From Spirochaetota bacterium (lineage in GTDB: Bacteria; Spirochaetota; UBA4802; UB4802), in assembly GCA_026414805.1 (NCBI GenBank), contig JAOAIH010000019.1, positions 1 to 48,597 on the forward strand: a DNA stretch of 48,597 nt, written 5' to 3'. The notes beneath the pieces were generated by a model. That model was not told the origin of the DNA, did not search any database, and saw only the letters and a program-made list of their open reading frames with translations. Positions 1 to 21,832 of the stretch are shown here, one piece after another (the first letter of the stretch is position 1; every line of letters begins with the position of its first letter). Both the position numbers and the translations under genes were made by a program.

Positions 1-3000
1 ATCATACTCTATCTTGCCAAATTCCCCAACATAGTAGGTAAACCCCCATTGCTCATCAGGCTTAAATAGCATTCCCATCCGCATCTGTGCTTCTGTCAGC
101 ATTGCATTCATTGTCCCAGCAAAATGTATCCCATCATAGCTTTGGTACTTCTCCATCACAGCCGGTATGCTGTGTGTGCCCAGTATCAGTTCATCCTCAT
201 ATACAAACGGTCTGTACGCCTGTAGTACCTGTTCTTTATTACTTGCAGGCAACCTGCGCCGGTAGGTATCGCCACGTATATTAAAATCATAGGCGCTTAC
301 AAACTGCTCTGCTGCATTCCGTGCCTGCTCATTTGCTGCTTCAATCTGCTGTCTGCAGCGCTTCAATAGTTCCGTGAGAGCCTTGAACATCTGTATGTTC
401 TGTATCTTTTGCTGGGCCTGTGCAAAATCCTCTGCAAGCTGCTTTGCCTCATTTAGTACCGCTCTATTATATTTGCGTGTGGTAAGCTTAGTTAATCCAA
501 AATTTACCTTTGTTTTTGTCAGCGCCATTACCTCATCGCTTAAAAGCTCGGGCTGCTCCTTAAGCAAGTCAAGTAGCATTGCGTGCACATCAATTGTTGC
601 AATTGCACCACCATACTTTTCTTTCATGTGCGATAGTAACTGATTAAGAGTCACCTCCATAGTACTAAGACGTGAATGCAATTCCTTTGCGCTCATGTTT
701 TTCTGCACATCGGCAAACCACTGTAGCTTTGCCTGCTCAAGCTGTTTCATCTGCTGGTCCCACTGTCTGTTTGCGACCACTATCTTTTCTTTAGTATCGC
801 TCTGCCAGTTCTTCCATCGGTTTGCAAATGCCTGCAACATCATATCCCACTGCCGCAGCCCCCGTTCAAAGATTCGGCCCGTCATTCTATCCCAATCATC
901 CTTTTTGTCCTGCAACAGCTTCTTTGTAAGTTGCCACTGATACACCTGCAGATCCCGCCTTTGCTTAAGCTCCCGGTCATTTATTCCTTCATACTGCTTC
1001 ACATACTCCATAAATTTTGAGCGAATCTCATCCTGACTATTGCTATCCATCATTGCATCAAGCTCATTAATCACATCAACCGGTATACCTTCAAGGTACC
1101 CCATGTATGCTATCATTGCCCGTACAGTTCCCTTTGATTCAGCACCTATTTGCAATGCTGATTGCTCATATTGTGCAAATTGTCCAAAAAGCTCTTTTTC
1201 CACTGCTCTGTCAATAACTACCCTATCGTAACCTTTCCCGGTATACATGCTTTTTGTATAATTTATGTAACGGGCAAGACAGCTTCGCCGCTGCTGATTC
1301 ATTATGGTAGCATACGTCTGGCTTACCGTGCCTGCATGGTATACTTGTATCAATTCATCAGTTTCATAGCCATTTTCATCGGTCTTATTTACCTTGTTTG
1401 TAAACTGTGTTACATTTACATAGTCACCACCTTTTTCCTGTACCACCATGTATTCCAGATCACTTTCCTTCAGTGCTACACCATAATTTTTAGCTATCTC
1501 TTGCAATGCCATTTTTAGCGTTGGCTTTTGCACCACAACTTTCTGCCTTGTTTTTGGATTGTAATACACAAATACACCGGTATTTACTTCACCATCAACT
1601 GATGCAATTTCTGCATATCTGGCAAGTGAAGCTTTTGCTTGCAACATAACAATCTTTTGTGCCTGAAGCTTTGTCAGTGTGGAATGGATGTTTCGTAATG
1701 CTGCTTTTGCATTGTTGTCATGTGTTTTAATATTTTGTTCTGCTTCTATTATTGGTTTGTACAGTAAATCAAGCATCAATACTATAGGTTTTAATACTAT
1801 TTTATAATATGATTTTGCAATGTTTCGCAGTGGATGTACTTTTTTCCCTAAAACTTTAATCGTTTTATTGTATAAATAATCATACATCTTTTTACTGGGT
1901 TTATATATGGTTTGATACGTACCAAGATAATTGACCATTAAATTATCATACTTATTTTCATAATTGCGCGCTCTTAGAAATTCATTAAAATATTGCTGTA
2001 TGTAATGATTCCCAGTAACTTTCTTATCATTTTTTTGCACCATTAAAAGATACTCATATAAGGGTGAGTCCATCCCTTCAATCTCATTCCCTTCTGGCAT
2101 CGAGCCAAAATACGGTTTTACATTGAGGATACGCTCACTTACACCATACCATGAGTGGTGCTCATTATAGTAATATGCTGCCGTTTGCAAATGGTGCAAC
2201 AATGTAGACTGTGTAAAAATTCTATTAAACCCTGCTACATTAGTCACGCCATTTACAAAACCATCATCTATCATTCTGTCAACAAGCCTGTTACGTTCAT
2301 CTTCATATTCTTTGTCAGTTACCTGCAAAAATGCATCCTTTGTTGTTTCATACTGTGCCTTTGCCTCTTCATAGGCTACACTTAGCTTCTTAATTTCTTG
2401 TTGCATGCACATGGCCAGTTTTTCCATGCGGTATGCCCGTTGTGCTTTTCCCCTGATCTCATCTTGTAGCTGTATATACTGCTGATCGTTTTCTACATTC
2501 TGCTTCTTTACTTCATCAACCCGCTTTTGCAAGTTTTGAATCTTTTGTTGTACCTCATCACGGTACTTTTGTGCTAGTTCATACTGTTGCCGTGCATCAG
2601 CTTTTAGTTTGCTTATTCCTTCATCGCCTCCTTCAGCATTGGTCTGACTATTAAAAAGATACGGTGTTGAAGCGTATGCATAGAGCAATTCTTCATCTTC
2701 TTTTAATTTGCGTGCCTCCTCAAGCCTATTATACAGAATGCTGATAATTTCAAGCTGTCTGATATATTCATTCTGCGCTTTGTTATATGCATTCAATGCA
2801 TTGTTAAAGTTTTTCTGTGCTTCTTCAAAGCGCACTTTTTTACTTACATAGTTACTTTCTGCATTGGTAAAATACACACTCTTTAAATACCCTGCCAGGT
2901 TAGCGTTTTCAAGGATTTTCCCCATTTTTTCAATATTTTTGTACGCATCAATGAGTGCTCTCTCCATATTTGCTTCCCTATCACGCATGTTATCAACAAG

Positions 3001-6000
3001 CTCTTCAACTCTGACATCACTACCACCTCTAATAACAGTTGAAAGATATTGCTGTATGGCCGTAAAGGGAAGCCTTTCCCCATTATTGTTTTCACCGTTA
3101 TTACTCCCTTCCTCATTGCTTTGGCCACCCTGTTCTGTAATAAGGGCTATTTCATCCATAAACCTGGCATAATCCCTTATAAACGACATGTCTACTGCCC
3201 TGTCATCATCACCCGTAAGCACAAACCCACTTGACTCTTCAACTGCCATCTGTGCCACCTTAACCAGGAGGTCAAACTGTACCTGCAAGTTGGTAGCTTC
3301 TTCAAGTATTGCATTAAAGTAACTTTTGATATCTCCTGTAAAATATCCCATTATATTGCCAGCATCAGTCACTATATCATCTATTCCCCTTGACTGCCTG
3401 TTTTCAATAGCAAGTCCAAACCCCTTTGATCTGTACTCTTCCAGAAAATCAGCCAAATATTTTTCACCTTCATCATGTGTTCCATTTTGATTTGCATCAT
3501 CATAGTACTTATAATTTCCTGTATTTTCACCTTTTTCAAGTTTTCGGTTTTTCAACTTATCCACATCATTAACAATGAAATCCTTAAACGGGCTTAATGA
3601 ATTTTCATCAGAGACATAGTCCTCATAGTAGTATTTTATACTTGGGAGATAGTCCCTAAAGTGTGAAAATATTGGCCTTGTAGCTAAAATAAACTGATAT
3701 ACCTCGCCTGCTATTGTTTTATCGCGCTGTGCTGCATATATGCATAGTGCCAGTAATGACTGCAGGCCATTTTCATCATCTTTACCAATGGTTTCAAAAA
3801 GTTCTTCGGTTGAATACTGCAACTGTAATCCTGTAAATACCAGTGGCACCTGGCTATCGCTTACTATCAAATTTACCGGATCAGCAAGCTCAGGATACAT
3901 GGTTGCCATGATAATATAATTTCTTTCTTTTTCCAGGGTGATTCTGTGTTCATCGCAATACTCCTTTAGCGGCGTAGTGCCATCATACTCCATGGCAATA
4001 TTAGTAAGATGCACAAAACTTTCAACACTTGAAACCATTACTTCATTTTCAGCATCCACTCCATAATATGCAAAAAGCTTTTCTACTGAATCAACAATCA
4101 TTCCTCCTTTGCGTTGGAGGTAGTATTCCCGTTGTAGTGCATATTCACGTACCCCTTGCGGCAGCCATGCAAGCGATAGCGCAGCGGTATCCTTTTGTAA
4201 CCAGACAAATAGTGTATGGAAAACATCATAGTGGGTTTTAAAGTAGTGTTGATTGTCATCATCACCATACTGTGTAAGACTGGTAAACCCTGAAGCCATA
4301 AAATTTCCTTCTTCTATATTGCCAAACACCTGTGTAAAATCTTCGCTAATTGTTCCACTACTATCAGCCAGTTCAATACAGTATGCAACAAAGTGTGCCA
4401 AAATATCCCGTTCACTTGATGCCGTAAATTGCTGAACTTTGTCTATTTTGTACGCTTGTGCAATCAATGAATTGGTGAGAGTTTCATAATATATAGCCTG
4501 GAGTTCATTATAATGTTTTTTAAAATACTCCCTTACTTCATCCCGTTTGTATTGAACAAGCTGCCCAAATCTGCCCGCAACAAACTCGCTATCATCAATA
4601 TAGCCAAGGAGTGCTTCTAATGTTGGCAATTCACCGCTTTTGAGTGAATCATATACATAATTTTGGAAATGCAAACCCAGTGCATACAAAATAAAATCAT
4701 TTGAATACGCAAATGCATTAAAATTCTCTATATCACCAATACTATTTTTAATTCCTTCATAATAGGCAGCAAGTATCCATAGGTTATCATCAGGTCCTTG
4801 TTGTACTTCATCGGGTTTCACCTCGTTGTGCGTCAATTGATCAACTATTCCACGCTTTGCCAGTTGTTTTTCAATTTCACTCTTCACTTTTATAACAAAT
4901 TCTTCAGTTTTCCCCTGCCCGCGCAAACGCTGGCAGTACTCATCAAGTGTACCATATGCACCAATGCTATCTACCAGAAATCGTCCACTGTAATCCACCA
5001 GTTCATATTCACTGCGTATCTTTTCAAGTTTTGAAAGCTGAGTAAGGATATTTGCCTGAATGGTGTGAAATGCAGAATTTTCAATATGTGCCTTTATTTC
5101 ATTGTAAATAGCTTCGCACTCTTTTAAAGTTGTTATCATTGCATCAGTGTATGCAGGCCAGGTGCCTCGCGGTACAACACTGTTATACGCATAACGCTGC
5201 TGTGTATAACTATTATCCCTATCATCACTGTACATGCTCCTTTTAAGTTGAATAAGCTTTCCATATTTATCCTGCAGTTGTGCAAGCTTGCTGTATATCA
5301 TTTCGGCCTGCTGGTAGGCAGTACGAGCGTCATCCTCTGATGTATATATGTTTTCATACAGTGTACGCTTTGCAAGCAATGCGTGATAACGGTCAACTAT
5401 GCTAAGCAAAGCCTGGCGCAATTCCACAGGTAATTTCCCAAACTCATGTGTCTGTATATAGCTTTCAGCCTTCTTCCCATACTCTAAAAGTGTAGCTACA
5501 GTCTTTGGATTTTGAAGTTCAACAGATACACTATCTGAACTATTTAAACCAAAAATCCGTGCAAGGGTGCCCATCCACCCTTCTTCCTTAACCCTGCGTG
5601 CATATTCAAGGGAACTCTTGTAATATTTTTCCACATAACGAGCATATTCTTCTTTCACAAATGCATGTCTTTGTTTTGCATCAACAGGACGCACTATGTC
5701 GAATACCTCTGGATGAATAAGTGCCGTAAATTTAATCTTTGCTATATTCTTCTGTTCTTCGGTAAGCTCATTGCCATTGCTATCTTTCCCTGTATCTACA
5801 ATTGTATTGTATTTTTTTATTAGACTATTGAAATCTGTTTCACTTTTACATTCACTCACCTCTGATGTATACAAATCCTTCACAACGTTTAGATCCTGTA
5901 TCAAACTCTCAATATTTTCTAAAACACTGTTAAGTTCATCAACATTTTTCACAGTGCAAAGGTTTTCTTCCATACTCAATAACACTGTAAACATGTATGC

Positions 6001-9000
6001 ATACTGTAATCCTTCATCACTGCTCCCATTCACAATTTTATCTTTGCACAATGCATATATATTTTTATATAGACTATCGCCATTAACTGTCTGACCATTT
6101 TCCCCCTCCCCATCCTGTCCTTCTTGTTGTTGCAGTCTCTGGCGATATCCCTCAAGAATCTTCTTTACCATAGTAAGCGTTGCCTGAGTTGTGTCAAAAT
6201 AGCCTCCACTGGCCTCTTTTTCTGCAATTGTAGCAGCTTGCAGTATATTGTCTTTTGTATACGGCGAGGTTTGTAGATTTTCATTCCTCATATCTTTTAA
6301 ACAATACTTTGCAACTGCATGGGTTATCTCATACAACTCGGTAATAGTCTGTCCTAGCGTTGCAACAGCCCTCTGTAGGTTGGCAGCTGCCTTGGTGTGC
6401 TGTTTATCTATTATTTCTTCATAGATTTCATAAAGCTGTGCACATGGTTTATATATCAACCCACTTTGAGTATCTTCTATGGTATCAATGCCATACCTCT
6501 TCATGAGGATATTAGTTAAAAGCACCGCTTCAATGCTTTCCTTTATTTCATCACCATTAAGCCCTGTATACTCTGAAAGAATATCACGTATTGTGTCTAT
6601 CTGCAGTAAACCTGCTGAATACCGTATAAGCAAGTTAACAGCACTTTCACATACGATACTATCCTCAGATAACAGGTACTCAATCTGTTCCTGTATCTTC
6701 TGCCATGTTATCTCAGTAGAATAAGTATCATTCTCAGCATTTACCATCATACCATTCAATATATACATTGCTGCATCACGAGATTTCTTTTGTACATCTG
6801 CTTCAGAATTTAAAAGTTTCCACTGATTATATACTTCTACTGCATCTACGTATAGTAATTTTGCCTCTTCACGCCGCTTTAATCCCTGTGTTAAAAATCC
6901 AATGTCCTCATCCTCCGGATTTTCCTCAAATAGTTCTTCTATTTTCACAAACACTGCATCAGCATTTTCTTCTATTGCAGCAATTACACCATCAATGTTA
7001 TTTGTTTTTACTATTGTATCCCACGTATTATATGCACCCCCAAATCCTGGTATTTCTCCATTGCCTGCAAGTGCACGGACTGCCTTTTCTATACGCAAAG
7101 CATATTCCGCAGTCTGACGATGACGCTGGCTAAGTATCAGTGCTTTAAAATAATCAAGTTTTGCTGAGAACAGCTTTTTTTCTTTATCTTGAATCCTGTT
7201 TTTTATTTGGATAATTGTACTTGCTGCTCCCTGCACCATCTGTATTGCCATATCACATGAAAGCGGATTTGTATAGTACAGCGATAGTTCAACTACTTCC
7301 TGATACCGCATCTGAGCAGCATAGTATGCAAGGCGCATCTCTTCCAAAAATTTTTGCTTTTCATCAACATCCTGCTGTGAAGCAATAAGAGTATCCTTAT
7401 ATTTCCCCTTCAAACGACTAAGTGCATTGTAATAATCCTCTTTTGCTTTATTATATGCATCAATTGCCTGTTGTAACTGTTTCTTCTGTGTTTGAGCATC
7501 AGGCCTTGAAGCTTCATTATACGCATATTCGTACAGCTTCTTTGCGCGCTGATAGCGTTCTTCCCAGTAGGCAAGCGTACATTTTTCTTTTTCCAGTTCA
7601 AATTCTGTCTGTGTCATCAAGTACGGATCATGCGTCACAGGATAATTACCATCAATAAGCACTATTCCCTGCGTATCCTGATACCAGTAAAATTGATACA
7701 GTGGATTACCTGTCTCATCGTATCGGTTGTCGGCAAGCAAACCACTGCCACCAGTAGTGTACCCAAAAAGAGCTTCAAAGCTTCCATCATGCTTTAGCAC
7801 ATACTGCCTGAAATTATCAAGTCGTGCCGCAATCCATCCGCTACTTTCTTTTTTTGCTAGTAATTGTCCATTCACATAGCTTATACTTGCAACAACGTAA
7901 TCATTGTACACAGCAGCAAGTTTACTCCTATACTTCACAACACCACTACCGTAACGGTTTACCAGTTGCCCAAACGCCTCATCAAATGGAACAAATCTTT
8001 CCGAAAGCAAATATACAAACTGTATAGTTACAATTTCCTGGCATAATTGCTCTGTAAACTGGAAGGCATTGACTCCCTGTATACTATTGCCGATATTGCC
8101 TTTGCGTACAGCAATATATAATGTTTTAAAAATATCTTCGTATCCTGCCAATTCGTACGATTCATCACAATATTGCTTTACAAACTCACCCTGTACAAAT
8201 AATTTTTGCATTGCCCACATGTCCTGCTCATGATACTGCAATGCCAGGCGTGCCACCAGCTGGTTATATCGTAAAATACTATCTCTCCAGTTTTGTAACT
8301 GTTCATCAACTGCCTGTTTTATCTGTAATAGATTGCTGTCGCTGCCAAGCGTTTGCGAATACTCACGCAACCACCCAATATTGTCATACGCCATTTTAAG
8401 CGATGTTGAGCCCGTCACTATTAAATCGCGAATTGATGCTGAGTAATCGTCAAATCGCTCAATTTCAGTCTGAATTGTTTCATCAAGCAATTTCAAACCA
8501 CCGGCAAAATCTCTGTCGGTCTGTAAAAATGTTTCTTCCCAGTTTATTATTCCTTGACGTATCTGGCGCTGTATGCTCAGGTACCATTCACTCTGCTTTT
8601 GTCTAAGAATATTAAAGGCATTTTCCCATGCAGCATTTGTAGATTCATAATTGGTCAACGCAGCTCTTTCCCATTCAAAGCGTTTAGCAATAAGCTTATC
8701 CTCGGCAGCTTTCCATGCATAAATCCCCGCCTGTATCAGCTGTTCTATATCATCTGTTTGTGGTATACTTACCCCGTTCACTACATAGACTAATTTTTCC
8801 TCTACCTGCTTTGCAAGCGCATCAGCGGTGTCTTGGGTCTTACTCAAAATATCCTGAGTTATTGACTCTGCTGATTGCTGCTCGCTTTCACGCCGCAAGC
8901 TCTTTGTGTCTGTATAATTTTTGGCCATATATGCATTACGTGCACCGATGTAGTACAACTCTATTTCTCTCTGAGCTTCTTTCTTTAACCTGGCAATACG

Positions 9001-9576
9001 GGCATCTATCTCTTTTATAAAGCCATCCCTGTATGATTCTATTGTTTCACCAATATCTGCTATTGCATCCTCACGCTGTCTACCAAGTTCAATACCAACA
9101 CTTGCAAGCAAATCCTCTACATAACCCCCCACTGCTTCATTCCATGCACGATAAGCATCAACCATGTTCTGCGGCGCATTCAATGCTTTCATCATTTGTA
9201 TTTTTTCTAAAAGCTCTTCCTTTGCATACTTTGGCATTACTATCTCAGCACACCGTGCTTCAAAACGTCCCTCTGCCTCTATCAACATCTGTTCAATAGT
9301 ATGCTTTGCACGCTGCTGTAATTCATAAACCCCCTCATCTGTTTCATCTCCTGTCTGTACAAATCCAAACAATGCCTCCTTTTCCCACAATGTATACGCA
9401 AGTCCCGCAGCTTGACTGGCCTTAAGCGTAAAGGCAATTTTATCCCTTTCAGCCAGCGCCGATTCAAGTGCCCGCGAAAGTGTTTCTTTTTGTCTACTGC
9501 TTTCAAATGGGATTATGTTTGCAAATGTAAGTGTAGAAACTAAAATAAATGCAATGCTCACTACTACACGTTTCAT
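1..9576 (-). CDS. Giant secreted, mostly helical surface/structural protein (3' end outside window)
   Basis: I read this frame directly: it is open from ATG at 9576 to base 1 (3192 codons), and the stop lies beyond the left edge. The start has GGAGG four bases upstream. A signal peptide is clear (MKRVVVSIAFILVSTLTFA, then NIIPFES). The rest is rich in A, Q, E, K and Y and looks helical, with coiled-coil stretches near residues 645-730 and 2230-2420. There is a canonical 12-residue EF-hand loop (DANQNGTHDEGE, about 2027-2038). An imperfect tandem duplication of about 92 residues lies at about 1636-1705 and 1728-1798, and a 'YC(D/Q)E/R' motif recurs about three times. No catalytic domain is recognised. 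Size, signal peptide and composition recall the large 'Lepto_longest' (TIGR04388-like) proteins of Leptospira; that is memory-based and unverified. It overlaps the upstream membrane gene by ATGA, so the two are probably translated together. Likely periplasmic, surface or exported. Confidence 0.85.
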   Translation of the reverse strand, partial: MKRVVVSIAFILVSTLTFANIIPFESSRQKETLSRALESALAERDKIAFTLKASQAAGLAYTLWEKEALFGFVQTGDETDEGVYELQQRAKHTIEQMLIEAEGRFEARCAEIVMPKYAKEELLEKIQMMKALNAPQNMVDAYRAWNEAVGGYVEDLLASVGIELGRQREDAIADIGETIESYRDGFIKEIDARIARLKKEAQREIELYYIGARNAYMAKNYTDTKSLRRESEQQSAESITQDILSKTQDTADALAKQVEEKLVYVVNGVSIPQTDDIEQLIQAGIYAWKAAEDKLIAKRFEWERAALTNYESTNAAWENAFNILRQKQSEWYLSIQRQIRQGIINWEETFLQTDRDFAGGLKLLDETIQTEIERFDDYSASIRDLIVTGSTSLKMAYDNIGWLREYSQTLGSDSNLLQIKQAVDEQLQNWRDSILRYNQLVARLALQYHEQDMWAMQKLFVQGEFVKQYCDESYELAGYEDIFKTLYIAVRKGNIGNSIQGVNAFQFTEQLCQEIVTIQFVYLLSERFVPFDEAFGQLVNRYGSGVVKYRSKLAAVYNDYVVASISYVNGQLLAKKESSGWIAARLDNFRQYVLKHDGSFEALFGYTTGGSGLLADNRYDETGNPLYQFYWYQDTQGIVLIDGNYPVTHDPYLMTQTEFELEKEKCTLAYWEERYQRAKKLYEYAYNEASRPDAQTQKKQLQQAIDAYNKAKEDYYNALSRLKGKYKDTLIASQQDVDEKQKFLEEMRLAYYAAQMRYQEVVELSLYYTNPLSCDMAIQMVQGAASTIIQIKNRIQDKEKKLFSAKLDYFKALILSQRHRQTAEYALRIEKAVRALAGNGEIPGFGGAYNTWDTIVKTNNIDGVIAAIEENADAVFVKIEELFEENPEDEDIGFLTQGLKRREEAKLLYVDAVEVYNQWKLLNSEADVQKKSRDAAMYILNGMMVNAENDTYSTEITWQKIQEQIEYLLSEDSIVCESAVNLLIRYSAGLLQIDTIRDILSEYTGLNGDEIKESIEAVLLTNILMKRYGIDTIEDTQSGLIYKPCAQLYEIYEEIIDKQHTKAAANLQRAVATLGQTITELYEITHAVAKYCLKDMRNENLQTSPYTKDNILQAATIAEKEASGGYFDTTQATLTMVKKILEGYRQRLQQQEGQDGEGENGQTVNGDSLYKNIYALCKDKIVNGSSDEGLQYAYMFTVLLSMEENLCTVKNVDELNSVLENIESLIQDLNVVKDLYTSEVSECKSETDFNSLIKKYNTIVDTGKDSNGNELTEEQKNIAKIKFTALIHPEVFDIVRPVDAKQRHAFVKEEYARYVEKYYKSSLEYARRVKEEGWMGTLARIFGLNSSDSVSVELQNPKTVATLLEYGKKAESYIQTHEFGKLPVELRQALLSIVDRYHALLAKRTLYENIYTSEDDARTAYQQAEMIYSKLAQLQDKYGKLIQLKRSMYSDDRDNSYTQQRYAYNSVVPRGTWPAYTDAMITTLKECEAIYNEIKAHIENSAFHTIQANILTQLSKLEKIRSEYELVDYSGRFLVDSIGAYGTLDEYCQRLRGQGKTEEFVIKVKSEIEKQLAKRGIVDQLTHNEVKPDEVQQGPDDNLWILAAYYEGIKNSIGDIENFNAFAYSNDFILYALGLHFQNYVYDSLKSGELPTLEALLGYIDDSEFVAGRFGQLVQYKRDEVREYFKKHYNELQAIYYETLTNSLIAQAYKIDKVQQFTASSERDILAHFVAYCIELADSSGTISEDFTQVFGNIEEGNFMASGFTSLTQYGDDDNQHYFKTHYDVFHTLFVWLQKDTAALSLAWLPQGVREYALQREYYLQRKGGMIVDSVEKLFAYYGVDAENEVMVSSVESFVHLTNIAMEYDGTTPLKEYCDEHRITLEKERNYIIMATMYPELADPVNLIVSDSQVPLVFTGLQLQYSTEELFETIGKDDENGLQSLLALCIYAAQRDKTIAGEVYQFILATRPIFSHFRDYLPSIKYYYEDYVSDENSLSPFKDFIVNDVDKLKNRKLEKGENTGNYKYYDDANQNGTHDEGEKYLADFLEEYRSKGFGLAIENRQSRGIDDIVTDAGNIMGYFTGDIKSYFNAILEEATNLQVQFDLLVKVAQMAVEESSGFVLTGDDDRAVDMSFIRDYARFMDEIALITEQGGQSNEEGSNNGENNNGERLPFTAIQQYLSTVIRGGSDVRVEELVDNMRDREANMERALIDAYKNIEKMGKILENANLAGYLKSVYFTNAESNYVSKKVRFEEAQKNFNNALNAYNKAQNEYIRQLEIISILYNRLEEARKLKEDEELLYAYASTPYLFNSQTNAEGGDEGISKLKADARQQYELAQKYRDEVQQKIQNLQKRVDEVKKQNVENDQQYIQLQDEIRGKAQRAYRMEKLAMCMQQEIKKLSVAYEEAKAQYETTKDAFLQVTDKEYEDERNRLVDRMIDDGFVNGVTNVAGFNRIFTQSTLLHHLQTAAYYYNEHHSWYGVSERILNVKPYFGSMPEGNEIEGMDSPLYEYLLMVQKNDKKVTGNHYIQQYFNEFLRARNYENKYDNLMVNYLGTYQTIYKPSKKMYDYLYNKTIKVLGKKVHPLRNIAKSYYKIVLKPIVLMLDLLYKPIIEAEQNIKTHDNNAKAALRNIHSTLTKLQAQKIVMLQAKASLARYAEIASVDGEVNTGVFVYYNPKTRQKVVVQKPTLKMALQEIAKNYGVALKESDLEYMVVQEKGGDYVNVTQFTNKVNKTDENGYETDELIQVYHAGTVSQTYATIMNQQRRSCLARYINYTKSMYTGKGYDRVVIDRAVEKELFGQFAQYEQSALQIGAESKGTVRAMIAYMGYLEGIPVDVINELDAMMDSNSQDEIRSKFMEYVKQYEGINDRELKQRRDLQVYQWQLTKKLLQDKKDDWDRMTGRIFERGLRQWDMMLQAFANRWKNWQSDTKEKIVVANRQWDQQMKQLEQAKLQWFADVQKNMSAKELHSRLSTMEVTLNQLLSHMKEKYGGAIATIDVHAMLLDLLKEQPELLSDEVMALTKTKVNFGLTKLTTRKYNRAVLNEAKQLAEDFAQAQQKIQNIQMFKALTELLKRCRQQIEAANEQARNAAEQFVSAYDFNIRGDTYRRRLPASNKEQVLQAYRPFVYEDELILGTHSIPAVMEKYQSYDGIHFAGTMNAMLTEAQMRMGMLFKPDEQWGFTYYVGEFGKIEYD

Positions 9577-10463
9577 AAAACCTCCATTGTGGGTATAATG
9601 GTAATACTATGTGCGGGATTTGTGTGGGCGATAGTAACTGCCAAAAAAACCTGTAGCAGCGTCAAAACCGTTACCAGCTTTATTTGTATTTGTTTATTCT
9701 CCGTGAGATATAAATTATACAGGTAATATTTCAGTTTAGGGGAATAGCGGCTTTTCTCGCTATGCGTATAGAATAATAAGAAACTGGATATAAGTGATGT
9801 TATTGAAGGAATATACCTTTGGGGATAGGCCTCACGTTGACGATAATAAAAACGCTCATAGCAATAGGAAACACCATTAAAAAACATCAGTGATGCACAT
9901 GCCACTGATACCAACAAAATCAGGTTATAAACTGTGCTACCAACACTCGATTCTTTCTTATGTAGTACTGCATACACACATATACTGCACACATCAACGC
10001 TAAAAGCCATACTACTGAGTTTTATAAAAGAACAATGATGCGGCAGCATAGCCTCTTCTTCCAGCGCTATTGACTTTTTACTTTTTTGTAATACCACAAG
10101 CGCTTTCTGCGTTGCCCTTGCAATGCAATACTTTATATCATTACATTGATACTTTCTGGAATATATGATATTTTCTCTATTACACACCCTTGGTGATTGG
10201 ATTTCTTTTAAAGTTTTGTTTTTTGCATCCATACCTGATAAGAGCGGTACATAACTATTACATATGCTAGTAGCAACGCCAGAATATACAATTGCACTCT
10301 TAATTTTATTATCCACTGGAATTACATAAAGCTCTCTACTATTAAGTTTTTTTAAATAATTCCAGGATGATGCATACGAATTGTGTATCGATATACATAT
10401 AGCAATAAGGATCAGCAATCTTTTAAAAGCAAAGAAAAAATATTTTGAATACAACAATACCAT
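9573..10463 (-). CDS. Multi-pass membrane protein coupled to the giant gene
   Basis: A 296-residue protein of no recognised family. ATG at 10463 is preceded by GAGGG at good spacing. The N-terminus has a hydrophobic segment (about residues 14-31, LLILIAICISIHNSYA) that could be a signal or anchor. A cysteine-containing soluble stretch follows (about 32-170), then three likely membrane segments near 178-200, 218-235 and 264-284. Its stop TGA overlaps the ATG of the giant gene (ATGA), and the Shine-Dalgarno of the giant gene lies in its last codons, so the pair is almost certainly translationally coupled. That arrangement suggests a job tied to the giant protein, for example its export, anchoring or assembly, but nothing in the sequence proves this. 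A promoter with TTGACA lies about 140 bp upstream. Confidence 0.75.
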   Translation of the reverse strand: MVLLYSKYFFFAFKRLLILIAICISIHNSYASSWNYLKKLNSRELYVIPVDNKIKSAIVYSGVATSICNSYVPLLSGMDAKNKTLKEIQSPRVCNRENIIYSRKYQCNDIKYCIARATQKALVVLQKSKKSIALEEEAMLPHHCSFIKLSSMAFSVDVCSICVYAVLHKKESSVGSTVYNLILLVSVACASLMFFNGVSYCYERFYYRQREAYPQRYIPSITSLISSFLLFYTHSEKSRYSPKLKYYLYNLYLTENKQIQIKLVTVLTLLQVFLAVTIAHTNPAHSITIIPTMEVL

Positions 10464-10602
10464 CTATCCCTCAACGCTTTCACGCAATATCTTTAAAATT
10501 AAACACTGCTTTATATATACGATTTCCCCAAATTATTATCAAATCTCAATGATAGGGCGTAAAACTACACTCTATATTTTTTATATACTAATATATGTAT
10601 TA

Positions 10603-10632
10603 ATTAAATGTAAATAATATTATTAATGTCAA
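10603..10632 (-). promoter_or_regulatory. Sigma-70-type promoter for membrane protein/giant gene pair
   Basis: On the minus strand a perfect -35 TTGACA (10627-10632) is followed after 18 bases by TTTAAT (10603-10608, five of six consensus bases). It faces the gene starting at 10463 and predicts a leader of about 130 bases. The surroundings are very AT-rich, which raises the chance of accidental matches, but the -35 is exact. Confidence 0.5.
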
Positions 10633-10987
10633 GTATTTTTTTATTTTATAATAGAAAATATATTGACTTTTTACTGTAATATTTTTACTATTTACAACTA
10701 ATTATTATACAAAACTAATTCAATTGTAAAAATTTTTAATAGTTCATTTTACTCATGAATCCTTACCAAAACCAGGTTGTTCGTCAGGTATTCATGATAT
10801 AAATATGTGAATGTGGGTAAGGGTGGTAAATGCATACTTCATACTTTTTCAATGAAGTAAAAACTATGAGTTATTAAAAAATAAAATCACCAGCTATATT
10901 GAATTTTTTTAACAGAAGCATATTATTATTTCATTTTTATAGAAATATCGTATTGGAAAAGTGGTTTATATAAATATTACGGATGTA

Positions 10988-11016
10988 TTGTACCAGGAAA
11001 TCAAAAAATATTTAAT
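10988..11016 (+). promoter_or_regulatory. Candidate promoter for the efflux operon
   Basis: TTGTAC (10988-10993), 17 bases, then TTTAAT (11011-11016; five of six consensus bases). It points at the first gene of the efflux operon and would give a leader of about 95 bases. A second weaker arrangement starts with TTGAAA at 11039. AT-richness makes both tentative. Confidence 0.35.
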
Positions 11017-11116
11017 GCAGGATATATAGTTTATAGAATTGAAAATACATACAAAAAAATTTTTTAAAAATTTTCCTTCACAAGCGTATTAATACATAAA
11101 TACAAAAGGAGGACCT

Positions 11117-11896
11117 ATGCCCAGCGAAATAATAACTAAATTTATATTACTTAGTATTTCATTATTATTTATTTGTGCATTATTATTTTCCTGTGTTAGT
11201 GCTCATATCGAGCCCAAACCACAACAGGTAATTATCAAGGGTTCGCACGGTATTCCAGATTATAATAAACTACATAGTATTGATATAGTAACCCACTATC
11301 CATTACCAAACAATGTAAAAAAAATATTAATTCAATATGCAACCAGGGAAAGTCAACCTGACGATACACTTCTATTATGGAATCAGGCAATTCAAAAAGC
11401 GTTACTTAGAAATGGATTTTTAATTGTTCAGCAGGACAATAGCGATGATCTTTTCAAAGAGGAAAATTCTGTTACAAGCTATGATGCAATATGCATTGTT
11501 GAACATATTCAGCTCAACAAGCAAACTGAAATTATTTCTTTTGAACAGGTTATCGATAACAATCAAGCCCAGCACCAGATATATTATTACATAGTTTCAA
11601 TAAGTGTGTGTATATCTGTTAATCAAATAATTATATGGCAGGGTGATGTAACCATAACATCATTTGACCTTCTAAAGAACAAAAACCTCATTCAGGAACC
11701 TACACTCCATAAAACAGTCACCTATGATTATTCATATTCAAAAAAACTAAAGAGGTGGATAAAGGATAGTCCCACAATTTTAATAACAGATAACTTTAGC
11801 AAATACTACAACGATGAGAACATACATCTTCATAAAAAGGAACTCATCCAATTAGCAGTATCTACACTTTTTAATCAATTGAAGGTGGTGCAATGA
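11117..11896 (+). CDS. Lipoprotein opening the RND efflux operon
   Basis: A 259-residue protein, family not recognised. ATG follows a strong AAAGGAGG. The N-terminus is a hydrophobic export signal ending in a lipobox (LLFSC, Cys at about residue 25), so the mature protein should be a lipoprotein of the periplasm or outer membrane. The rest is a soluble alpha/beta-looking domain: a helix with WNQAIQKALLRNGF near residue 90, then strands with the stretch IIIWQGDVTITSF. This is reminiscent of small LpoB/CsgG-like lipoprotein folds, but that is only an impression. The stop overlaps the start of the next gene by four bases. It heads the operon with the TolC, adaptor and RND genes, so a role in assembling or tuning that exporter is the natural inference. 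Confidence 0.75.
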   Translation: MPSEIITKFILLSISLLFICALLFSCVSAHIEPKPQQVIIKGSHGIPDYNKLHSIDIVTHYPLPNNVKKILIQYATRESQPDDTLLLWNQAIQKALLRNGFLIVQQDNSDDLFKEENSVTSYDAICIVEHIQLNKQTEIISFEQVIDNNQAQHQIYYYIVSISVCISVNQIIIWQGDVTITSFDLLKNKNLIQEPTLHKTVTYDYSYSKKLKRWIKDSPTILITDNFSKYYNDENIHLHKKELIQLAVSTLFNQLKVVQ

Positions 11897-12480
11897 AATT
11901 TCCATGTATAATAATCATAAGTATCTTTTTATTATCATGTTCCAACATACAAAAATCCCAGGAATTATATAATAAAGCTTTAACACAGTATTTGGAAAAA
12001 AATTTTTCAATTGCAAAGGAACTATGTCTTCAATCCATAAAAGAAGCCAAAAACCCTGAAGCACTACTTTTGCTTTCAAAAATATATTTTTTTACAAATC
12101 ACCCAAACTTTGAGGATACAATACAACAATATATTTCACTCACCGAAAGTACACAGGGGTACACACTGTATGCCCGTTGGCAGATGCGTCAAAACAAATT
12201 TAAAGATGCAAAAACACTTCTTCAAAAGGCACTTGAACACTCCCCTTACGACCCAGCAGCATCATATATGCTTGGAAGCATACACTATGCAGAAAAAGAA
12301 TATGACGAAGCTATTATCAGCTTCTACAAAGCCTTTGCTAATTATTACTTCCTTATGCTGATCCATAAACAGCTTGCCACAATCTACTCTGATATTGGTT
12401 TGGCTGATCGATCATCAAAGCATACTATTATGGTAAAAGCAATTACTGCTTTTGATAAAGAATTTCCAATGGAGGAATAA
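11893..12480 (+). CDS. TPR-repeat lipoprotein
   Basis: A 195-residue protein. The signal sequence ends in a lipobox (FLLSC, Cys16). The mature part is built of tetratricopeptide-like helices: a first pair near residues 20-60 (YNKALTQYLEKNFSIAKELC), a second near 90-120 and a clear TPR at about 122-160 (YMLGSIHYAEKEYDEAIISF). TPR lipoproteins usually act as protein-protein scaffolds at the periplasmic face of a membrane. It overlaps the previous lipoprotein gene by four bases (ATGA) and is followed one base later by the next lipoprotein, all in the efflux operon. The likely role is a scaffold for exporter components; the partner is not known. Confidence 0.8.
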   Translation: MKFPCIIIISIFLLSCSNIQKSQELYNKALTQYLEKNFSIAKELCLQSIKEAKNPEALLLLSKIYFFTNHPNFEDTIQQYISLTESTQGYTLYARWQMRQNKFKDAKTLLQKALEHSPYDPAASYMLGSIHYAEKEYDEAIISFYKAFANYYFLMLIHKQLATIYSDIGLADRSSKHTIMVKAITAFDKEFPMEE

Positions 12481-12481
12481 T

Positions 12482-12946
12482 ATGCAGATTTTAAGAATTG
12501 CATGTGTTATGCTGTGCACTGTAATATCATGTAAAGGGCTCAATGTTCAGACAGTATCGACAGGCAAGATTTTAAATGATTCAATTTACATAAATGACGT
12601 TCGAATTCATCATCAGGCATACACCGACATAAAAGATGCATTAGCTTCAAATATAGTATTTTACCTTCAAAAAAACAGCTTCAAAGCCGCTTCATATTTT
12701 TCACAATCTCTTCACCAATCTAATTACCGTTATACGCTCGTAGTTGACGTTTTTATTACAAGCACAGGCGATATTTTGAGCCCTGTCCAGAATCTTTTAC
12801 TCTATGCAACAATTCAGGATTCATCAGGACATGTTGCTACCATACAGCTCAGTTCACAAAGCTTTGATATACGACGGAGTGATGACCAAACAAAAGTAGC
12901 CCAGACTATTGCTCAAAAAATTGATGATATGGTGCAGAAAAAATGA
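12482..12946 (+). CDS. Small lipoprotein of the efflux operon
   Basis: 154 residues from ATG 12482, chosen because GGAGG lies just upstream inside the end of the TPR gene, and because this start puts an export signal with a lipobox (TVISC, Cys about 16) directly at the N-terminus. An upstream in-frame start at 12452 would hide the signal. The mature domain has alternating strands and helices (IKDALASNIVFYLQKNSF, then YTLVVDVFIT) and ends in a helix (VAQTIAQKIDDMVQ). It looks like the first lipoprotein of the operon in style, so the two may share a fold. No family recognised. The stop overlaps the ATG of the TolC-like gene. Confidence 0.7.
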   Translation: MQILRIACVMLCTVISCKGLNVQTVSTGKILNDSIYINDVRIHHQAYTDIKDALASNIVFYLQKNSFKAASYFSQSLHQSNYRYTLVVDVFITSTGDILSPVQNLLLYATIQDSSGHVATIQLSSQSFDIRRSDDQTKVAQTIAQKIDDMVQKK

Positions 12947-14310
12947 AACGGGGAATATGTATTATATACACAATAGTCATTACAGCAAATATAGCATCAG
13001 GGCAAGAACCATTTACACTTAAAACTGCTATTGAGTATGCACTTAAAAACAGCATAACATTAACTTCATTAAAAGCAAGAGTACAATCCACACGGCTTAT
13101 CATTCATGAGCGGTTGCGTGAACTGCTCCCCTCCATTACTGTACAATATACAAAAATGGACAACGTAGCAATACGAGAGCAGGACACACGGAATCAATCA
13201 TTACTCTGTACTGCGCAGTATGACATCTTTACCAGCAGAAAAGCCCTCATAGCGTATTCAATCTCCGAATTGGAATCATTACTTGCACTAGAAGAATATA
13301 ATATAGAAAAAAACACTATTATTCTCAACACCAAAAAAGGATATTTTGACCTTCAAAAAAAGAAAAAGGCAATAGAAATCTATACTATGCTATTAGATAG
13401 CTTTTTATTACAAAAGCAGATTATCACTGCTCAACAAAAATTGGGCATGGCAACCGAATTAGAGCGCATACAGGTAGATGGCAAGATTGCAGAAGCTCAG
13501 TATAACATCATATCCGCTCAAAACGATTATGCTAATGCACTTAGTGATTTTGCAACATTTCTTAATATTGAACCATCCCGCATTGACGTTGAGGCCCCCC
13601 AGTTTGAAGAATTTCACGACAAATCTTTGCCAACAAAAGAGCACCTCATTGCTTTAGCTTTACAACAACGCAATGAATTGAAAAAAAGTCACTATGCAGT
13701 AATTAAAACACAAAAAGAATATGAGTTAGCACGCTACTACTATATGCCAAAAATTCAAATCTTTGCAAGCTATGGTTATACTGGTGAACAATTCCCTATG
13801 AATAAACAAACCTGGAATGTTGGCATTTCAGTTACAAGCACCATTTTTGGGAATACAGTAAATGCAGGCAATAGTTACGGAAAAAAGGATAATGGCAATA
13901 CAACCACTTCCGATAGCAATGCCTCATTGCAGGTATATGATGCACCTGATTTTTTACGTAACATAGTTGATTCTGAAGCTGCATATACACAGGCAATACA
14001 AACCTACGAACAACTCAAGCGGTCCATAGCTAGCGATGTTTCAAAGACCTACGATAGTTTAATAGAATCAACAAAAAAAGTAGAGATAGCAAAGCAACAA
14101 GTATTGCTACTTGAAAAACAAGCAACTATTGAAAATGAACGTGTACGGCTTGGTGATATCACTCGCTATGATGTATTAAAAACACTTTTAGAGCTTTCAC
14201 AGGCACGATTGCAACTACAATCTACAATTACTGATGTCTTTATTGCCATAGCTTTACTAGAAAATGCTGTTGGAGTCCCACAGGAATCTTTTTTTAAGGG
14301 TGTTCAATAA
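12943..14310 (+). CDS. TolC-family outer-membrane efflux channel
   Basis: A 455-residue outer-membrane efflux protein. After a signal peptide (about residues 1-20, ending ASGQ) comes FTLKTAIEYALKNS, the usual opening of the family. Long helical stretches alternate with strand segments in two copies. The first has LLPSITVQYT and the helix DYANALSDFATFLNIEP. The second, after about residue 230, has RNELKKSHYAVIKTQKEYELARYYYMPKIQ and ends with NERVRLGDITRYDVLKTLLEL, the typical second-half motif. Trimers of such proteins form the exit duct of RND exporters. It sits between the lipoproteins and the adaptor with four-base and one-base overlaps, so it is the dedicated channel of this system. Confidence 0.88.
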   Translation: MKRGICIIYTIVITANIASGQEPFTLKTAIEYALKNSITLTSLKARVQSTRLIIHERLRELLPSITVQYTKMDNVAIREQDTRNQSLLCTAQYDIFTSRKALIAYSISELESLLALEEYNIEKNTIILNTKKGYFDLQKKKKAIEIYTMLLDSFLLQKQIITAQQKLGMATELERIQVDGKIAEAQYNIISAQNDYANALSDFATFLNIEPSRIDVEAPQFEEFHDKSLPTKEHLIALALQQRNELKKSHYAVIKTQKEYELARYYYMPKIQIFASYGYTGEQFPMNKQTWNVGISVTSTIFGNTVNAGNSYGKKDNGNTTTSDSNASLQVYDAPDFLRNIVDSEAAYTQAIQTYEQLKRSIASDVSKTYDSLIESTKKVEIAKQQVLLLEKQATIENERVRLGDITRYDVLKTLLELSQARLQLQSTITDVFIAIALLENAVGVPQESFFKGVQ

Positions 14311-15731
14311 TGAGAATGTTATATATGTTATTAACTCATAAGAAAAAAGTTTTGTTTGGAGTCCTACTCTGCATGGTTTTATCGATAGTGTATGGCATTA
14401 TTTCACTTTTCATAAAAAAAACCAATGTCCCCGATACTCAACCCATTATTGAGATAGAAACGATGACTATAACTCCTCAAACAATTACTAAAATCTTACC
14501 TGCTGTTGGAAGCATTCAATATAAAGACAAAGCCATTATATCATCAAAAGTATTTGGAAGGATTGAAAAAATCTACACCGAGCAGGGCACCATTGTCAAA
14601 AAGGGGCAGATACTTGCAAAAATTGAAACCTATCCTCTTGAGCTTCAGCTAATGGAAGCACAGGCAGAACTTGAAAAGGCAAAAGCAAACCACAGGCTTG
14701 CTGAAGAAAAGCTCATTCAGTCACAGCGTACTGTTGAGCAACGTTTGAAGGCAATTGTAAAAGCTAAATTAGAGCTTACTGATAAATACGTGACATTAAA
14801 AAACACTGAAGATGTGTTAAAGAAGAAAGAACAGCTTTTTAAAGCAGGTGGCATTACCCAAACTGAATTAAACTCTCTTAAAACAAACTACCATACTGTA
14901 AAGACTCAATTTTTACAGGCCAGAAAAGATTACGAAACGCTTGTTGTTGGGTATCGCGATAGCGATATTAAAAAAGCGGGGTTTGTAATTCCTTCTAGTG
15001 ATGAAGAAAAAAATAAATTGTTAATAAAGATCAATACCGCAATTGAACAAGCAGAGTGTGACGCTGCAAAAAGTCAGGTACAGCAGGTTACTACTCAAAT
15101 AGAGATAATCAAAACCAATATAAAAGAAGCAACTATCGTTTCTCCAATTAATGGTATCGTTGCAATACGTTCAATAGATATTGGTGAAAAGGTGAGTGAA
15201 GATACCAATCTCTTTGTTATTATCAACACTGCACAGGTTTACTGTATTGTGCAGATGAACGAAAAAGACCTCCCTATGATAAAACAAGGACAAAATGTTG
15301 AACTAGCTATCGATGCACTTGGAAGTAAAAAGATACATGGCAGGGTATTTTTAATTAGTCCAATAATTGATCCTTCTAGCAGAACTGCAGAAGTAAAGAT
15401 TCTTTGCTCAAATTCCTCAAATGAGCTTAAACCCGGTATGTTTGCTCGTGCTTCTATCAATATAGGAGCCATACCTGATGCTATTCTTATCCCTCTTTCA
15501 TCAATCAAAGAAGGTGAAAAGCCAGCCGTATTTTGCATCAGGAATACTATGGCGTTTGAAACACCAATCACAATACTGGAGCATATCAATGAACAATATG
15601 CTCTTGTTAAAACCGGGTTGTCCGCTGGTGATATGATAGCTATCTCACACATCAAGCTTTTGTACGATAAAGCCAAAGTTAAGCCTATCTCAATGCAATC
15701 GCAGCGTAGTGGAGGGAATAATGAAAGCTAA
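14310..15731 (+). CDS. RND membrane-fusion (HlyD/AcrA-type) adaptor
   Basis: 473 residues. One N-terminal membrane segment (about 13-35) anchors it in the inner membrane. The lipoyl/barrel-sandwich halves are visible at about 83-106 (GRIEKIYTEQGTIVKKGQIL) and about 272-303 (ATIVSPINGIVAIRSIDIGE). Between them lies a long helical hairpin rich in K, E, A and Q that would reach the TolC channel. The beta-barrel and membrane-proximal domains follow (LKPGMFARASINIG). Together with the TolC-like protein and the RND pumps downstream it forms the periplasmic bridge of a tripartite exporter. The ATG shares a base with the TolC stop, and AAGGG upstream gives acceptable ribosome binding. The hairpin is longer than in the shortest adaptors. 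Confidence 0.9.
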   Translation: MRMLYMLLTHKKKVLFGVLLCMVLSIVYGIISLFIKKTNVPDTQPIIEIETMTITPQTITKILPAVGSIQYKDKAIISSKVFGRIEKIYTEQGTIVKKGQILAKIETYPLELQLMEAQAELEKAKANHRLAEEKLIQSQRTVEQRLKAIVKAKLELTDKYVTLKNTEDVLKKKEQLFKAGGITQTELNSLKTNYHTVKTQFLQARKDYETLVVGYRDSDIKKAGFVIPSSDEEKNKLLIKINTAIEQAECDAAKSQVQQVTTQIEIIKTNIKEATIVSPINGIVAIRSIDIGEKVSEDTNLFVIINTAQVYCIVQMNEKDLPMIKQGQNVELAIDALGSKKIHGRVFLISPIIDPSSRTAEVKILCSNSSNELKPGMFARASINIGAIPDAILIPLSSIKEGEKPAVFCIRNTMAFETPITILEHINEQYALVKTGLSAGDMIAISHIKLLYDKAKVKPISMQSQRSGGNNES

Positions 15732-17163
15732 TGTGTACGTGGTAATGCTAACACTGATGATCTTTTTTTCATGCGGGTACGATATTACTCCACCCAGGAT
15801 TGTATCGTATATTCCTGGCAATGGAACATCTGCCCCCACTAGTACTTCAATACAAATAACTTTCTCTAAAACAATGAACAAAGACATCACGCAAAAAGCA
15901 TTTTCACTAATGTACGGCGAAACCGAATCAATCCACATCAATGGAAAGTTTGAATGGAGCGATAGTAACCAGATAATGACTTTTATCCCCGAAAAAGAGC
16001 TAATCCCTGGTTACTATCGCATTATTGTAGATAAAACAGCCTGTGACACACATAACAACACTTTAGTCACTCAGCACCTATCACGTTTTTACGCTGGCTT
16101 TGATTATACCAACCCTTCAGTCACAAATTCCTCACCACAGGATGGCGCACTGAACATCCCTTTGAATGCTATAATAACAATACATTTTTCCGAACCAATG
16201 AATATACAGTCAGTACAAAAAAATATTCGCATTTCACCTGCTTTTGGTTATACCGTTTTGTGGGATAACCAATTCACAACACTCATACTGTATCCTCACG
16301 AACCATTACTATTTAATACATGGTATTCAATAACCATACCAACCAATTGTACAGACATTGCTGGTAACAGCATCCTCAACCAGTATGAATTTCGTTTTAA
16401 AACTGGTACCGAGTATGTGCGTCCACAAATTACAGGAATCTACACCACATCAATTGCAGAAAATATGGCACAAGCTTTAAATTTTACTATATTTGAAGGT
16501 GCAAATATAAACGATGAGCTTATTCTTCAATTTAGCGAACCAGTTGATGAGTCAACCCTTTTAAATGCTCTCATTATAAATCCAGCAGTCTCCTGGCAGC
16601 CATTATGGAACACATTATACACCAGTTGTACCATTCGCTTTGCTCAGAGTTTGCAACCCAATACACAGTATGAACTTTTACTCACTACCAGTTTAAAAGA
16701 CAAAGCAGGCAACTTTCTGTCAGACAATCGTTGTATATACTTCATTACCAATGGTCCACTGTCACAACGTCCAGAAATCATTCATGTAGTCTGCAATGAA
16801 ACAGTAAACGGGCAAGTTCAATTGGGACCATATAGTCAAATAAATAATTTAGGCCAAGAGCTTACTGTGCAAAACAATAGTTATACTTTCACCATCACAT
16901 TTTCTATGGACATATTGAGGAATTCAGTACCTGACAATGTTAGGATAGAATATCTACATGGAGAACAACCTGAAATGAGCGGAAATATTCGCTCTTTCCA
17001 ATGGGGATCATCACGCATACTTACACTTACTATCGCAGCAATCGAAGGAGGCAATGTCTATAAGCTGACAGTTAAAGGTGGTGATAGTGGTATTACTGCA
17101 TACACAGGAATACCGTTAAAGGAAAATATGAATTATATCTTTTACTTTGAACCACAGGATTAA
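15721..17163 (+). CDS. Lipoprotein with SbsA/Big_5 Ig-like repeats (first copy)
   Basis: 480 residues from ATG 15721, preferred over the GTG at 15709 because GGAGGG sits directly before it. The signal ends in a lipobox (IFFSC). The mature protein is a string of about three Ig-like domains of the SbsA/Big_5 type. Each begins with the P-x-(D/N)G(A/T)...P motif, as in VSYIPGNGTSAPTSTSIQIT and SSPQDGALNIPLNAIITIHF, and carries the FSEPM(N/D) strand and the closing D-x-A-G-N motif (CTDIAGNS, LKDKAGNF). A fourth C-terminal region is less regular. It overlaps the adaptor gene by 11 bases. Such domains usually act as surface spacers or binding modules; finding them inside an efflux operon is unusual. 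Confidence 0.85.
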   Translation: MKANVYVVMLTLMIFFSCGYDITPPRIVSYIPGNGTSAPTSTSIQITFSKTMNKDITQKAFSLMYGETESIHINGKFEWSDSNQIMTFIPEKELIPGYYRIIVDKTACDTHNNTLVTQHLSRFYAGFDYTNPSVTNSSPQDGALNIPLNAIITIHFSEPMNIQSVQKNIRISPAFGYTVLWDNQFTTLILYPHEPLLFNTWYSITIPTNCTDIAGNSILNQYEFRFKTGTEYVRPQITGIYTTSIAENMAQALNFTIFEGANINDELILQFSEPVDESTLLNALIINPAVSWQPLWNTLYTSCTIRFAQSLQPNTQYELLLTTSLKDKAGNFLSDNRCIYFITNGPLSQRPEIIHVVCNETVNGQVQLGPYSQINNLGQELTVQNNSYTFTITFSMDILRNSVPDNVRIEYLHGEQPEMSGNIRSFQWGSSRILTLTIAAIEGGNVYKLTVKGGDSGITAYTGIPLKENMNYIFYFEPQD

Positions 17164-17206
17164 TTGTGTAATTTTCACAATGTCTTATAAAAATAGGGTG
17201 ATTTCT

Positions 17207-18748: not shown

Positions 18749-18757
18749 AGGGGCTTC

Positions 18758-21700: not shown

Positions 21701-21832
21701 GGTCTTCAGCAAGGATCAGATCTTCAATCTCCTTTAGCTATTTCAATCATAGGAGGAATGATTATCGGAACATTATTCATAATGGTCGTATACCCCTCTA
21801 TACTATTAGTGTGGTTGCTAAGAAAAAAATGA
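18758..21832 (+). CDS. RND efflux transporter, first pump
   Basis: 1024 residues, normal length for an AcrB/MdtB-type resistance-nodulation-division pump of the inner membrane driven by proton flow. The first transmembrane helix is followed by LLPPIEYPEISVITLYPGAS and KPIEEAVNSVPGI, typical of the porter domain. TM4 has GGMTLCVGMLIDCGIVILET: the first Asp (D399) that carries protons in the family is present, but the neighbouring position, usually Asp or Asn, is Cys. The TM10 region has GSVILIGTIVNNVILLTD. A strong AAAGGGG precedes the ATG. The stop overlaps the start of the second pump (ATGA), so the two are coupled and may work as a mixed trimer or as parallel pumps. Substrate not predictable. 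Confidence 0.92.
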   Translation: MFASFTVHRPVAVIMVFSALCLFGVISLFNLQMDLLPPIEYPEISVITLYPGASPSEVEQLITKPIEEAVNSVPGITRIRSESIEGASLVVATLQWGINIDFALLKTREKVDLTRGMLPQDVYKPIVTRFDPNALPVMNIAITSSQLDSKALRYEVEKNIVPLFERIDGIGNAKVSGGKVRQIEVLVNRDTMHAYNVNLQDIVNAIQISHYNYPAGTIIAGDKELIIRTVGEFKNLSDIESVRVKTTKEGKPIFLKHIAKVIDGYKEVTSQSFINGHDCINLSIIKESGKNTVKVCTKALQLVQHINSKYTHLQCQVFYDGSEYIKQAIYNVISSALQGSVIAFIVLLFFLQNLISSFVIIIAIPVSLCITLLFLNLYGISINMMSLGGMTLCVGMLIDCGIVILETINQTKNHNYSFTQRIQEAIVSVSPSLVTSTLTSVVIFLPLILIKGIAGALFTQLAITVTVALIASLLVSIMLIPAIFILLHNFKINSTNTKASKLFYKLSHKLHTHIDEINKNYIQIVQKILPSLKVTKITTIIILTFGCLSLLFLDKSLMPHTTQKQFLIRIEMPRGTPLSHTVDFCLLIDSLLSKNPAVKKRLINAGYNPHDHTEYFGKEKNTNIGEIAVTIDSDADDAIKWLRKNLHHSSSIKIDYNTQNPELLQVLPLSMGNIIFECTGQSLSEIEQAIQTFLEHNKVIPGVKDIIVDVKKGKPEIAIHPDKEKLTSFGLSLLDVASTLHTAFYGSTAGKYFEHDNEFDVTVRFDAPFRDSIDDINAILLHTQNSFIPLKEIADVKQQSGYSSITRKDQQHYIAFYVFVDDGYSYSSIIKSIKSRWENTLKNSSVSLNISPDIKETQESIHDLIAILILSIVLIFMIIASQFESLSIPMLIMSTIPISLCGSSIFLFITNNSLNIMSLMGSVILIGTIVNNVILLTDTVIKKYQHSEPIIEFIIAACNSRFLSISMTSLTTLCGLLPLALGLQQGSDLQSPLAISIIGGMIIGTLFIMVVYPSILLVWLLRKK

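Follow-up and report, generated by a model that had tools for sequence, protein, structure and literature searches.

A giant Sec-exported protein of Spirochaetota, probably the conserved body of a polymorphic toxin, and its association with an RND/TolC-type operon

Polymorphic toxin systems, for which Tox-PL-C39 and L,D-peptidase toxins have been described (Zhang et al. 2012, PMC3482391), combine a conserved trafficking body and a Sec signal with an exchangeable C-terminal toxin, a downstream immunity gene and orphan toxin-immunity cassettes. The spirochaetal family analysed here is similar in all these respects, its immunity genes being candidates, and differs in that the body is a giant helical protein family with no Pfam or NCBIfam model, that tips resembling peptidoglycan hydrolases predominate and that the immunity candidates are secreted. 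The abstract of that paper does not list an association with RND/TolC-type genes, as found here, among the routes of delivery. Neisseria MafA/MafB (PMC3482391) likewise pairs a Sec-exported polymorphic toxin with a small exported protein, encoded by a dedicated gene upstream, whereas in our case the partner is not a conserved lipoprotein, its gene overlaps that of the toxin by ATGA and the toxin is far larger; the MafB-N (DUF1020) domain was not found by Pfam after the signal peptide of the giant. The CDI system (CdiA/CdiB) also has a very long surface-type toxin with a variable tip and an adjacent immunity gene (here a candidate), but the giant is helical rather than beta-helical in models, and neither the TPS domain nor filamentous-haemagglutinin repeats gave a Pfam match above cut-off. 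RHS/YD repeats of Rhs toxins were not found in it. CDI, Rhs and MafB identities are ruled out by these domain tests.

Very long proteins are also known from Leptospira (TIGR04388, Lepto_longest), and the first-pass annotation of this DNA had likened the giant to them. The likeness is real but distant: some relatives of the giant match positions ~25-195 of the model weakly (4e-9 to 5e-6, at most 35 bits, with the model cut-off at 45 bits), while a search with the window protein and 11 relatives gave no match. At the curated cut-off the giant is therefore not a member of TIGR04388, and the proteins that did score above it here are encoded by shorter frames (1,454-2,226 aa). With tripartite RND pumps and type 1 secretion the locus shares a neighbouring operon for an RND transporter, an HlyD-type adaptor and an OEP/TolC-type channel; it differs from them by the tandem RND genes and two Big_5 Ig-like proteins of that operon, and from type 1 secretion by a candidate substrate that is a giant Sec-exported protein in which no RTX features were found.

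The window, i.e. the whole stretch of DNA that was analysed, is an entire contig (G000:C19, 48,597 b) of a spirochaete assembly of 186 contigs, whose position among named relatives is beside Spirochaetia bacterium UBA2205; its features are listed in Table 1. The minus-strand frame of the giant runs from 9576 to 1 with no stop in 3,192 codons and leaves the contig at its end, which confirms the long open frame annotated previously. Its N-terminus, MKRVVVSIAFILVSTLTFA, is a plausible Sec signal, again as annotated, and a GGAGG Shine-Dalgarno sequence at 9581-9585, just 5' of the ATG of the giant (9576), does lie within the end of the small upstream gene. Neither the giant ORF nor the 296-codon ORF upstream had a meaningful Pfam or NCBIfam match.

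Table 1. Features of the giant locus and the divergent operon in the window
Feature	Position	Strand	Basis or remark
Giant Sec-exported, helix-rich putative polymorphic toxin, 5' part (3,192 codons)	1..9576	-	ORF; class from relatives
83-bp segment, 99% repeat at end of contig C34 (G000:C34:32728-32810)	424..506	-	same genome
ATGA stop/start overlap (translational coupling)	9573..9576	-	partner TGA within ATGA
Upstream partner ORF, 296 codons, N-terminal signal/TM segment	9573..10463	-	ORF 10463-9573
Partner tail up to giant start, open, amino-acid-unconstrained in the congener pair compared	9577..9821	-	
Conserved partner motif YERFYYRQREAYP	9822..9860	-	all four genus members, one substitution in G002
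AT-rich intergenic region between divergent operons	10464..11116	.	
First operon genes: 259-aa protein, TPR protein (11893-12480), 164-aa protein	11117..12946	+	syntenic in G002
OEP/TolC-like outer membrane channel	12943..14310	+	Pfam PF02321 1.3e-40
HlyD-type periplasmic adaptor	14310..15731	+	2.8e-34
Two Big_5 Ig-like domain proteins (15709-17163, 17147-18748)	15709..18748	+	
Tandem RND transporters (ACR_tran)	18758..24894	+	second listed from 21676, matching from ~21838

A single-sequence search of genome contigs with the giant found no relatives; these were recovered by alignment-based search of the contigs. Three congeners (G002, G003 and G004) encode the giant at 41-55% identity over its pieces, and both the giant and the small upstream ORF are missing from G005 and from the same-family genome G001. 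Within the order the giant is present in 20 of 46 genomes, and a profile built from the first 880 residues has matches in 78 of 393 genomes of Spirochaetota, the frames of the matched genes often having 2,700-5,100 codons. Across the phylum the body is conserved and the last ~200-300 residues are exchanged. Predicted models are almost all helix at low confidence (mean pLDDT 65-67), in keeping with the exported and largely helical protein first annotated; PDB sequence and fold searches returned coiled-coil or helical noise only, and in structure searches with these low-confidence models no solved fold resembled the body. It should be added that one metagenomic bin (JANSYA01, MAG bin.39) carries four giant paralogs of ~4,600-5,100 codons on separate contigs (L079, L084, L087 and L089). 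Furthermore, between loci L010 and L020 synonymous divergence is ~0.2-0.3 in the partner and the first 250 codons of the giant and exceeds 1 over most of its remainder, a rise that suggests mosaic exchange along the locus.

The C-terminal ends were analysed in relatives with complete frames. The ortholog in G002 (UBA2205) is complete at 3,856 aa and ends in a Gly/Ala-rich hydrophobic stretch followed by a C39-like peptidase at residues 3681-3823 (Pfam C39_2, 1.3e-13); directly 3' lies a 225-aa ORF with a signal peptide and an F5/8C-like NADase_transloc domain. Other complete giants end in C39 (L072), NlpC/P60-like or weakly GH-E-like (nuclease) domains, and several ends resemble L,D-transpeptidases or papain-like peptidases by motif alone. 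Over Spirochaetota the tip classes comprise M23, M74, C39, NlpC/P60-like and L,D-transpeptidase-like, M74 and M23 coming from orphan modules. Toxin-type enzymes above the Pfam cut-off were C39_2 (1.3e-13 and 1.3e-7), M74 (8.9e-7) and M23 (1.8e-25), and NLPC_P60 (0.0012) and GH-E (0.022) fell below it. The L,D-transpeptidase-like, papain-like and some NlpC-like ends are motif-only assignments with no useful Pfam score, and NCBIfam and PDB sequence searches of the C-termini gave nothing useful. Most ORFs 3' of giants or toxin modules have a signal peptide or lipobox, as would be expected for targets of toxins in the periplasm. The exchange is abrupt in L134 and L135, both on long contigs, where the bodies are ~90% identical over ~2,600 residues and ~25% thereafter, and where the downstream ORFs do not match each other.

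Tips also occur apart from the body. Contigs C55, C54 and C33 of G002 join by 25-bp overlaps into one array, which comprises the giant with its C39 tip, the immunity candidate, and orphan M23, M74-like, NlpC-like and L,D-transpeptidase-like modules; each of the four orphan modules starts with the common seed MLSSAWDG and is followed by an exported ORF of its own. Orphan modules also follow the giants in G017 and L089, with seeds 94% and 74% identical and with different tips. Homologous tips were found on different bodies in three combinations, namely C39 in G002 and L072, M74 in orphans of G002 and G017, and NlpC in a G002 orphan and L078, and in each of them the downstream ORFs are homologous too. 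Such parallel homology of tips and downstream genes is the signature of cognate toxin-immunity pairs, so that the genes directly 3' are candidate immunity genes. L132 (G003:C66, 5262-5936) retains a copy of this C39-type immunity gene in a displaced position, next to a remnant of the C39 toxin and a transposase-like ORF.

The assembly ends before the tip of the window giant. By comparison with the ortholog, the C-terminal ~650 residues, with the hydrophobic region and the toxin, would be missing from it; a search of the window's own genome for this 3' end with the tail of the UBA2205 giant gave no match. Since the window has no toxin tip, the class of its giant is inferred from orthologs, and its own tip would presumably be a toxin as well. 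For orphan cassettes, the one lead in this genome is the 83-bp repeat, whose copy on contig C34 follows non-coding DNA, starts a short frame and stops at the contig edge. That copy is likely to be the start of an orphan cassette, and the repeat is a likely reason for the contig breaks in the region; the orphan-cassette phenomenon of the relatives would then probably extend to the genome of the window itself.

The first-pass annotation had described the small gene as a multi-pass membrane protein forming a unit with the giant. The ATGA overlap with this 296-residue ORF (9573-9576) is far beyond chance, and a small ORF directly 5' of the giant has the same overlap in all three giant-bearing congeners (G002, G003 and G004). 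Among 31 loci with a readable start the exact ATGA overlap is found in 18, and further loci overlap by 8-14 nt (three) or by more (L082). The pair is thus adjacent and coupled in the giant-bearing congeners, as proposed; over many genomes most giants have an upstream ORF, but in some loci it is missing. Multi-pass character is less firm than annotated: it is based on hydropathy in this species, distant position-equivalents mostly have a signal peptide only, and the C-terminal third of the ORF is without amino-acid constraint in related species. Three clade versions can be recognised by their motifs, YERFYYRQREAYP, DYYRLYLYxWEDxPW and YHALRQGYxGG. Profile comparison found no detectable homology among the three and we therefore do not claim a single partner family; the position and coupling of the small ORF are conserved across clades.

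Constraint on the small ORF is uneven. In the comparison of G003 with G004, constraint is stronger before and at the motif than over the last ~86 codons, which have a dN/dS of 1.19 and about equal divergence by codon position (0.22/0.27/0.19); an independent pair (L051/L069) gave 0.38/0.42/0.40 for the tail. The probability that this tail stays open by chance is 0.0036 in the window, ~0.003-0.006 per genome in its genus and ~0.01-0.10 in the other genomes tested. As the tail is open yet unconstrained, it is the frame that is kept and not the amino acids, and the simplest reading would be that ribosomes must arrive at the start of the giant.

The operon divergent from the giant (11117-24894), which has the same arrangement in G002, encodes an RND transporter, an adaptor and an outer membrane channel together; the first-pass annotation had missed this co-occurring RND/TolC operon. 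Within the order, every one of the 20 giant-positive genomes has an HlyD ortholog, defined by E < 1e-60, as do 2 of the 26 others (Fisher P = 4e-11; P = 1.8e-6 when each genus and state is counted once). Other HlyD paralogs (E ~1e-20) are present regardless of the giant and serve as an internal control. The two HlyD-positive genomes in which no giant was detected, G001 and G027, are both incomplete (71% and 81%), and the pattern splits sister species in four genera (g1, g13, g24 and g26, the negative genome of g26 being incomplete). Of 19 genomes tested, 11 have an RND gene no more than ~20 kb from the giant, where the per-genome number of RND genes would predict ~5-10%; the comparison is uncorrected for phylogeny. 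OEP, HlyD, Big_5 and RND genes adjoin giants in 7 of 11 further loci and in others besides, in differing orientations and also outside the order, and the RND cluster is on another contig or distant in G003, G004, G018, G039, G042 and others. Over these genomes the cluster and the giant are thus associated by both co-occurrence and linkage. In L136 (5176-5179) and L139 the gene that overlaps the giant by ATGA is an RND gene and not a small ORF. It should also be added that the second RND protein (window 21676-24894, L136 and L139) matches a SecD/SecF C-terminal model at ~1e-5 to 1e-4, and the first does not.

Complete relatives with exchangeable hydrolase- or nuclease-like ends, secreted immunity candidates and orphan cassettes identify the family as polymorphic toxins, and we consider it very probable that the giant is the conserved body of a spirochaetal interbacterial toxin of this kind. 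The first-pass annotation had instead seen a long periplasmic or surface filament or scaffold, an identity which is rejected because the C-termini are swapped and the downstream genes are cognate. On such a view the giant would be a periplasmic or surface scaffold whose ends remodel the cell's own peptidoglycan with the downstream gene as accessory factor and no antagonism; the long helical make-up, the Sec signal and the peptidoglycan-active ends could be accommodated by it, but hardly the abrupt switch of C-terminus between near-identical bodies, the orphan cassettes, each with a downstream gene of its own, the matching of C-terminus and downstream gene as pairs on unrelated bodies and the occurrence of one or more ends that resemble a nuclease (GH-E, weak), which leave it highly improbable. 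With the polymorphic toxin accepted, the cargo of the neighbouring operon has to be considered. RND pumps are able to pick up substrates in the periplasm, and Sec followed by RND/TolC export appears to be the best mechanism for the giant, with the export step itself held with slightly more belief than doubt. RND pumps are not known to export proteins of this size, the cluster is unlinked to the giant in several genomes and the HlyD ortholog stands without a detected giant in the incomplete G001 and G027, so the operon might, as a minority possibility, export another molecule such as a lipid or drug and merely belong to the same accessory island. Such an island explains less well the co-occurrence in 20 of 20 versus 2 of 26 genomes, which extends to differences within genera while paralogs are present regardless, the linkage kept through differing orientations and the ATGA overlap of an RND gene with the giant in two genomes.

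For the small ORF, a role as true partner of the giant, acting in the periplasm or membrane as a chaperone or adaptor that hands it to the exporter, in a position like that of MafA with respect to MafB, is in our judgement evenly poised. Its presence upstream of most giants, its predicted export or membrane insertion and the conservation of its N-terminal two-thirds within the genus would fit, whereas its extremely fast divergence, with clades lacking a common profile, and its absence from some loci would not. Alternatively, and rather unlikely, it may be a leader, in which a Sec-targeted nascent chain uses the motif as a translation or secretion sensor by SecM-like logic and the unconstrained tail merely carries ribosomes to the coupled start of the giant. 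A signal peptide with a short conserved motif, a tail kept open despite dN/dS of 1.19 (one pair) and equal divergence of codon positions (two independent pairs), and an ATGA overlap widely kept by three versions without profile similarity are consistent with a leader. Known arrest peptides have their motif at the end of the chain, however, and here it lies 45-90 codons before the stop; moreover, the section before the motif is conserved too (identity 0.76, close pair), some giants have no small ORF, and in two an RND gene takes its coupling position.

Taking the polymorphic toxin with RND/TolC export as a working model, the giant would be made with a Sec signal and reach the periplasm as a helical protein of ~400 kDa, to be exported or displayed by a dedicated tripartite machine of tandem RND transporters, HlyD-type adaptor and TolC-type channel, together with the two Ig-like proteins. 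The C-terminal domain of the giant, which is exchangeable and in most cases a peptidoglycan hydrolase, would enter the periplasm of competitors, and the product of the gene directly 3' would act as periplasmic or lipoprotein immunity, protecting the producer from its own toxin. Tips would be exchanged by recombination with orphan toxin-immunity cassettes, and the ATGA-coupled small ORF would link translation of the giant to synthesis of a short protein that is secreted or inserted in the membrane. Killing activity, immunity, passage through the RND/TolC machine and delivery route are here what we infer.

Our literature search on spirochaete polymorphic toxins, on the longest proteins of Leptospira and on export of polymorphic toxins by RND pumps found no matching report; as preprints and subscription journals were outside its scope, this is weak evidence of novelty. 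A wider reading, to which we give as much credence as doubt, is a phylum-wide form of spirochaete antagonism, based on giant toxins (~2,700-5,100 aa) that are exported by Sec and carry exchangeable tips degrading the cell wall, and on a dedicated RND/HlyD/TolC and Ig-like machine that moves them across the outer membrane, translation of the giant being tied to a leader ORF or a pump gene. If it is true, RND pumps would drive a protein secretion pathway, and if the RND link is causal, this would be a new way of moving very large proteins out of diderm bacteria. Many cell-wall-directed toxin-immunity pairs would be supplied, and assembly breaks at the 3' ends of giant spirochaete genes would be explained. 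Some of the largest and least understood genes of spirochaetes would thereby become a defined weapon system.
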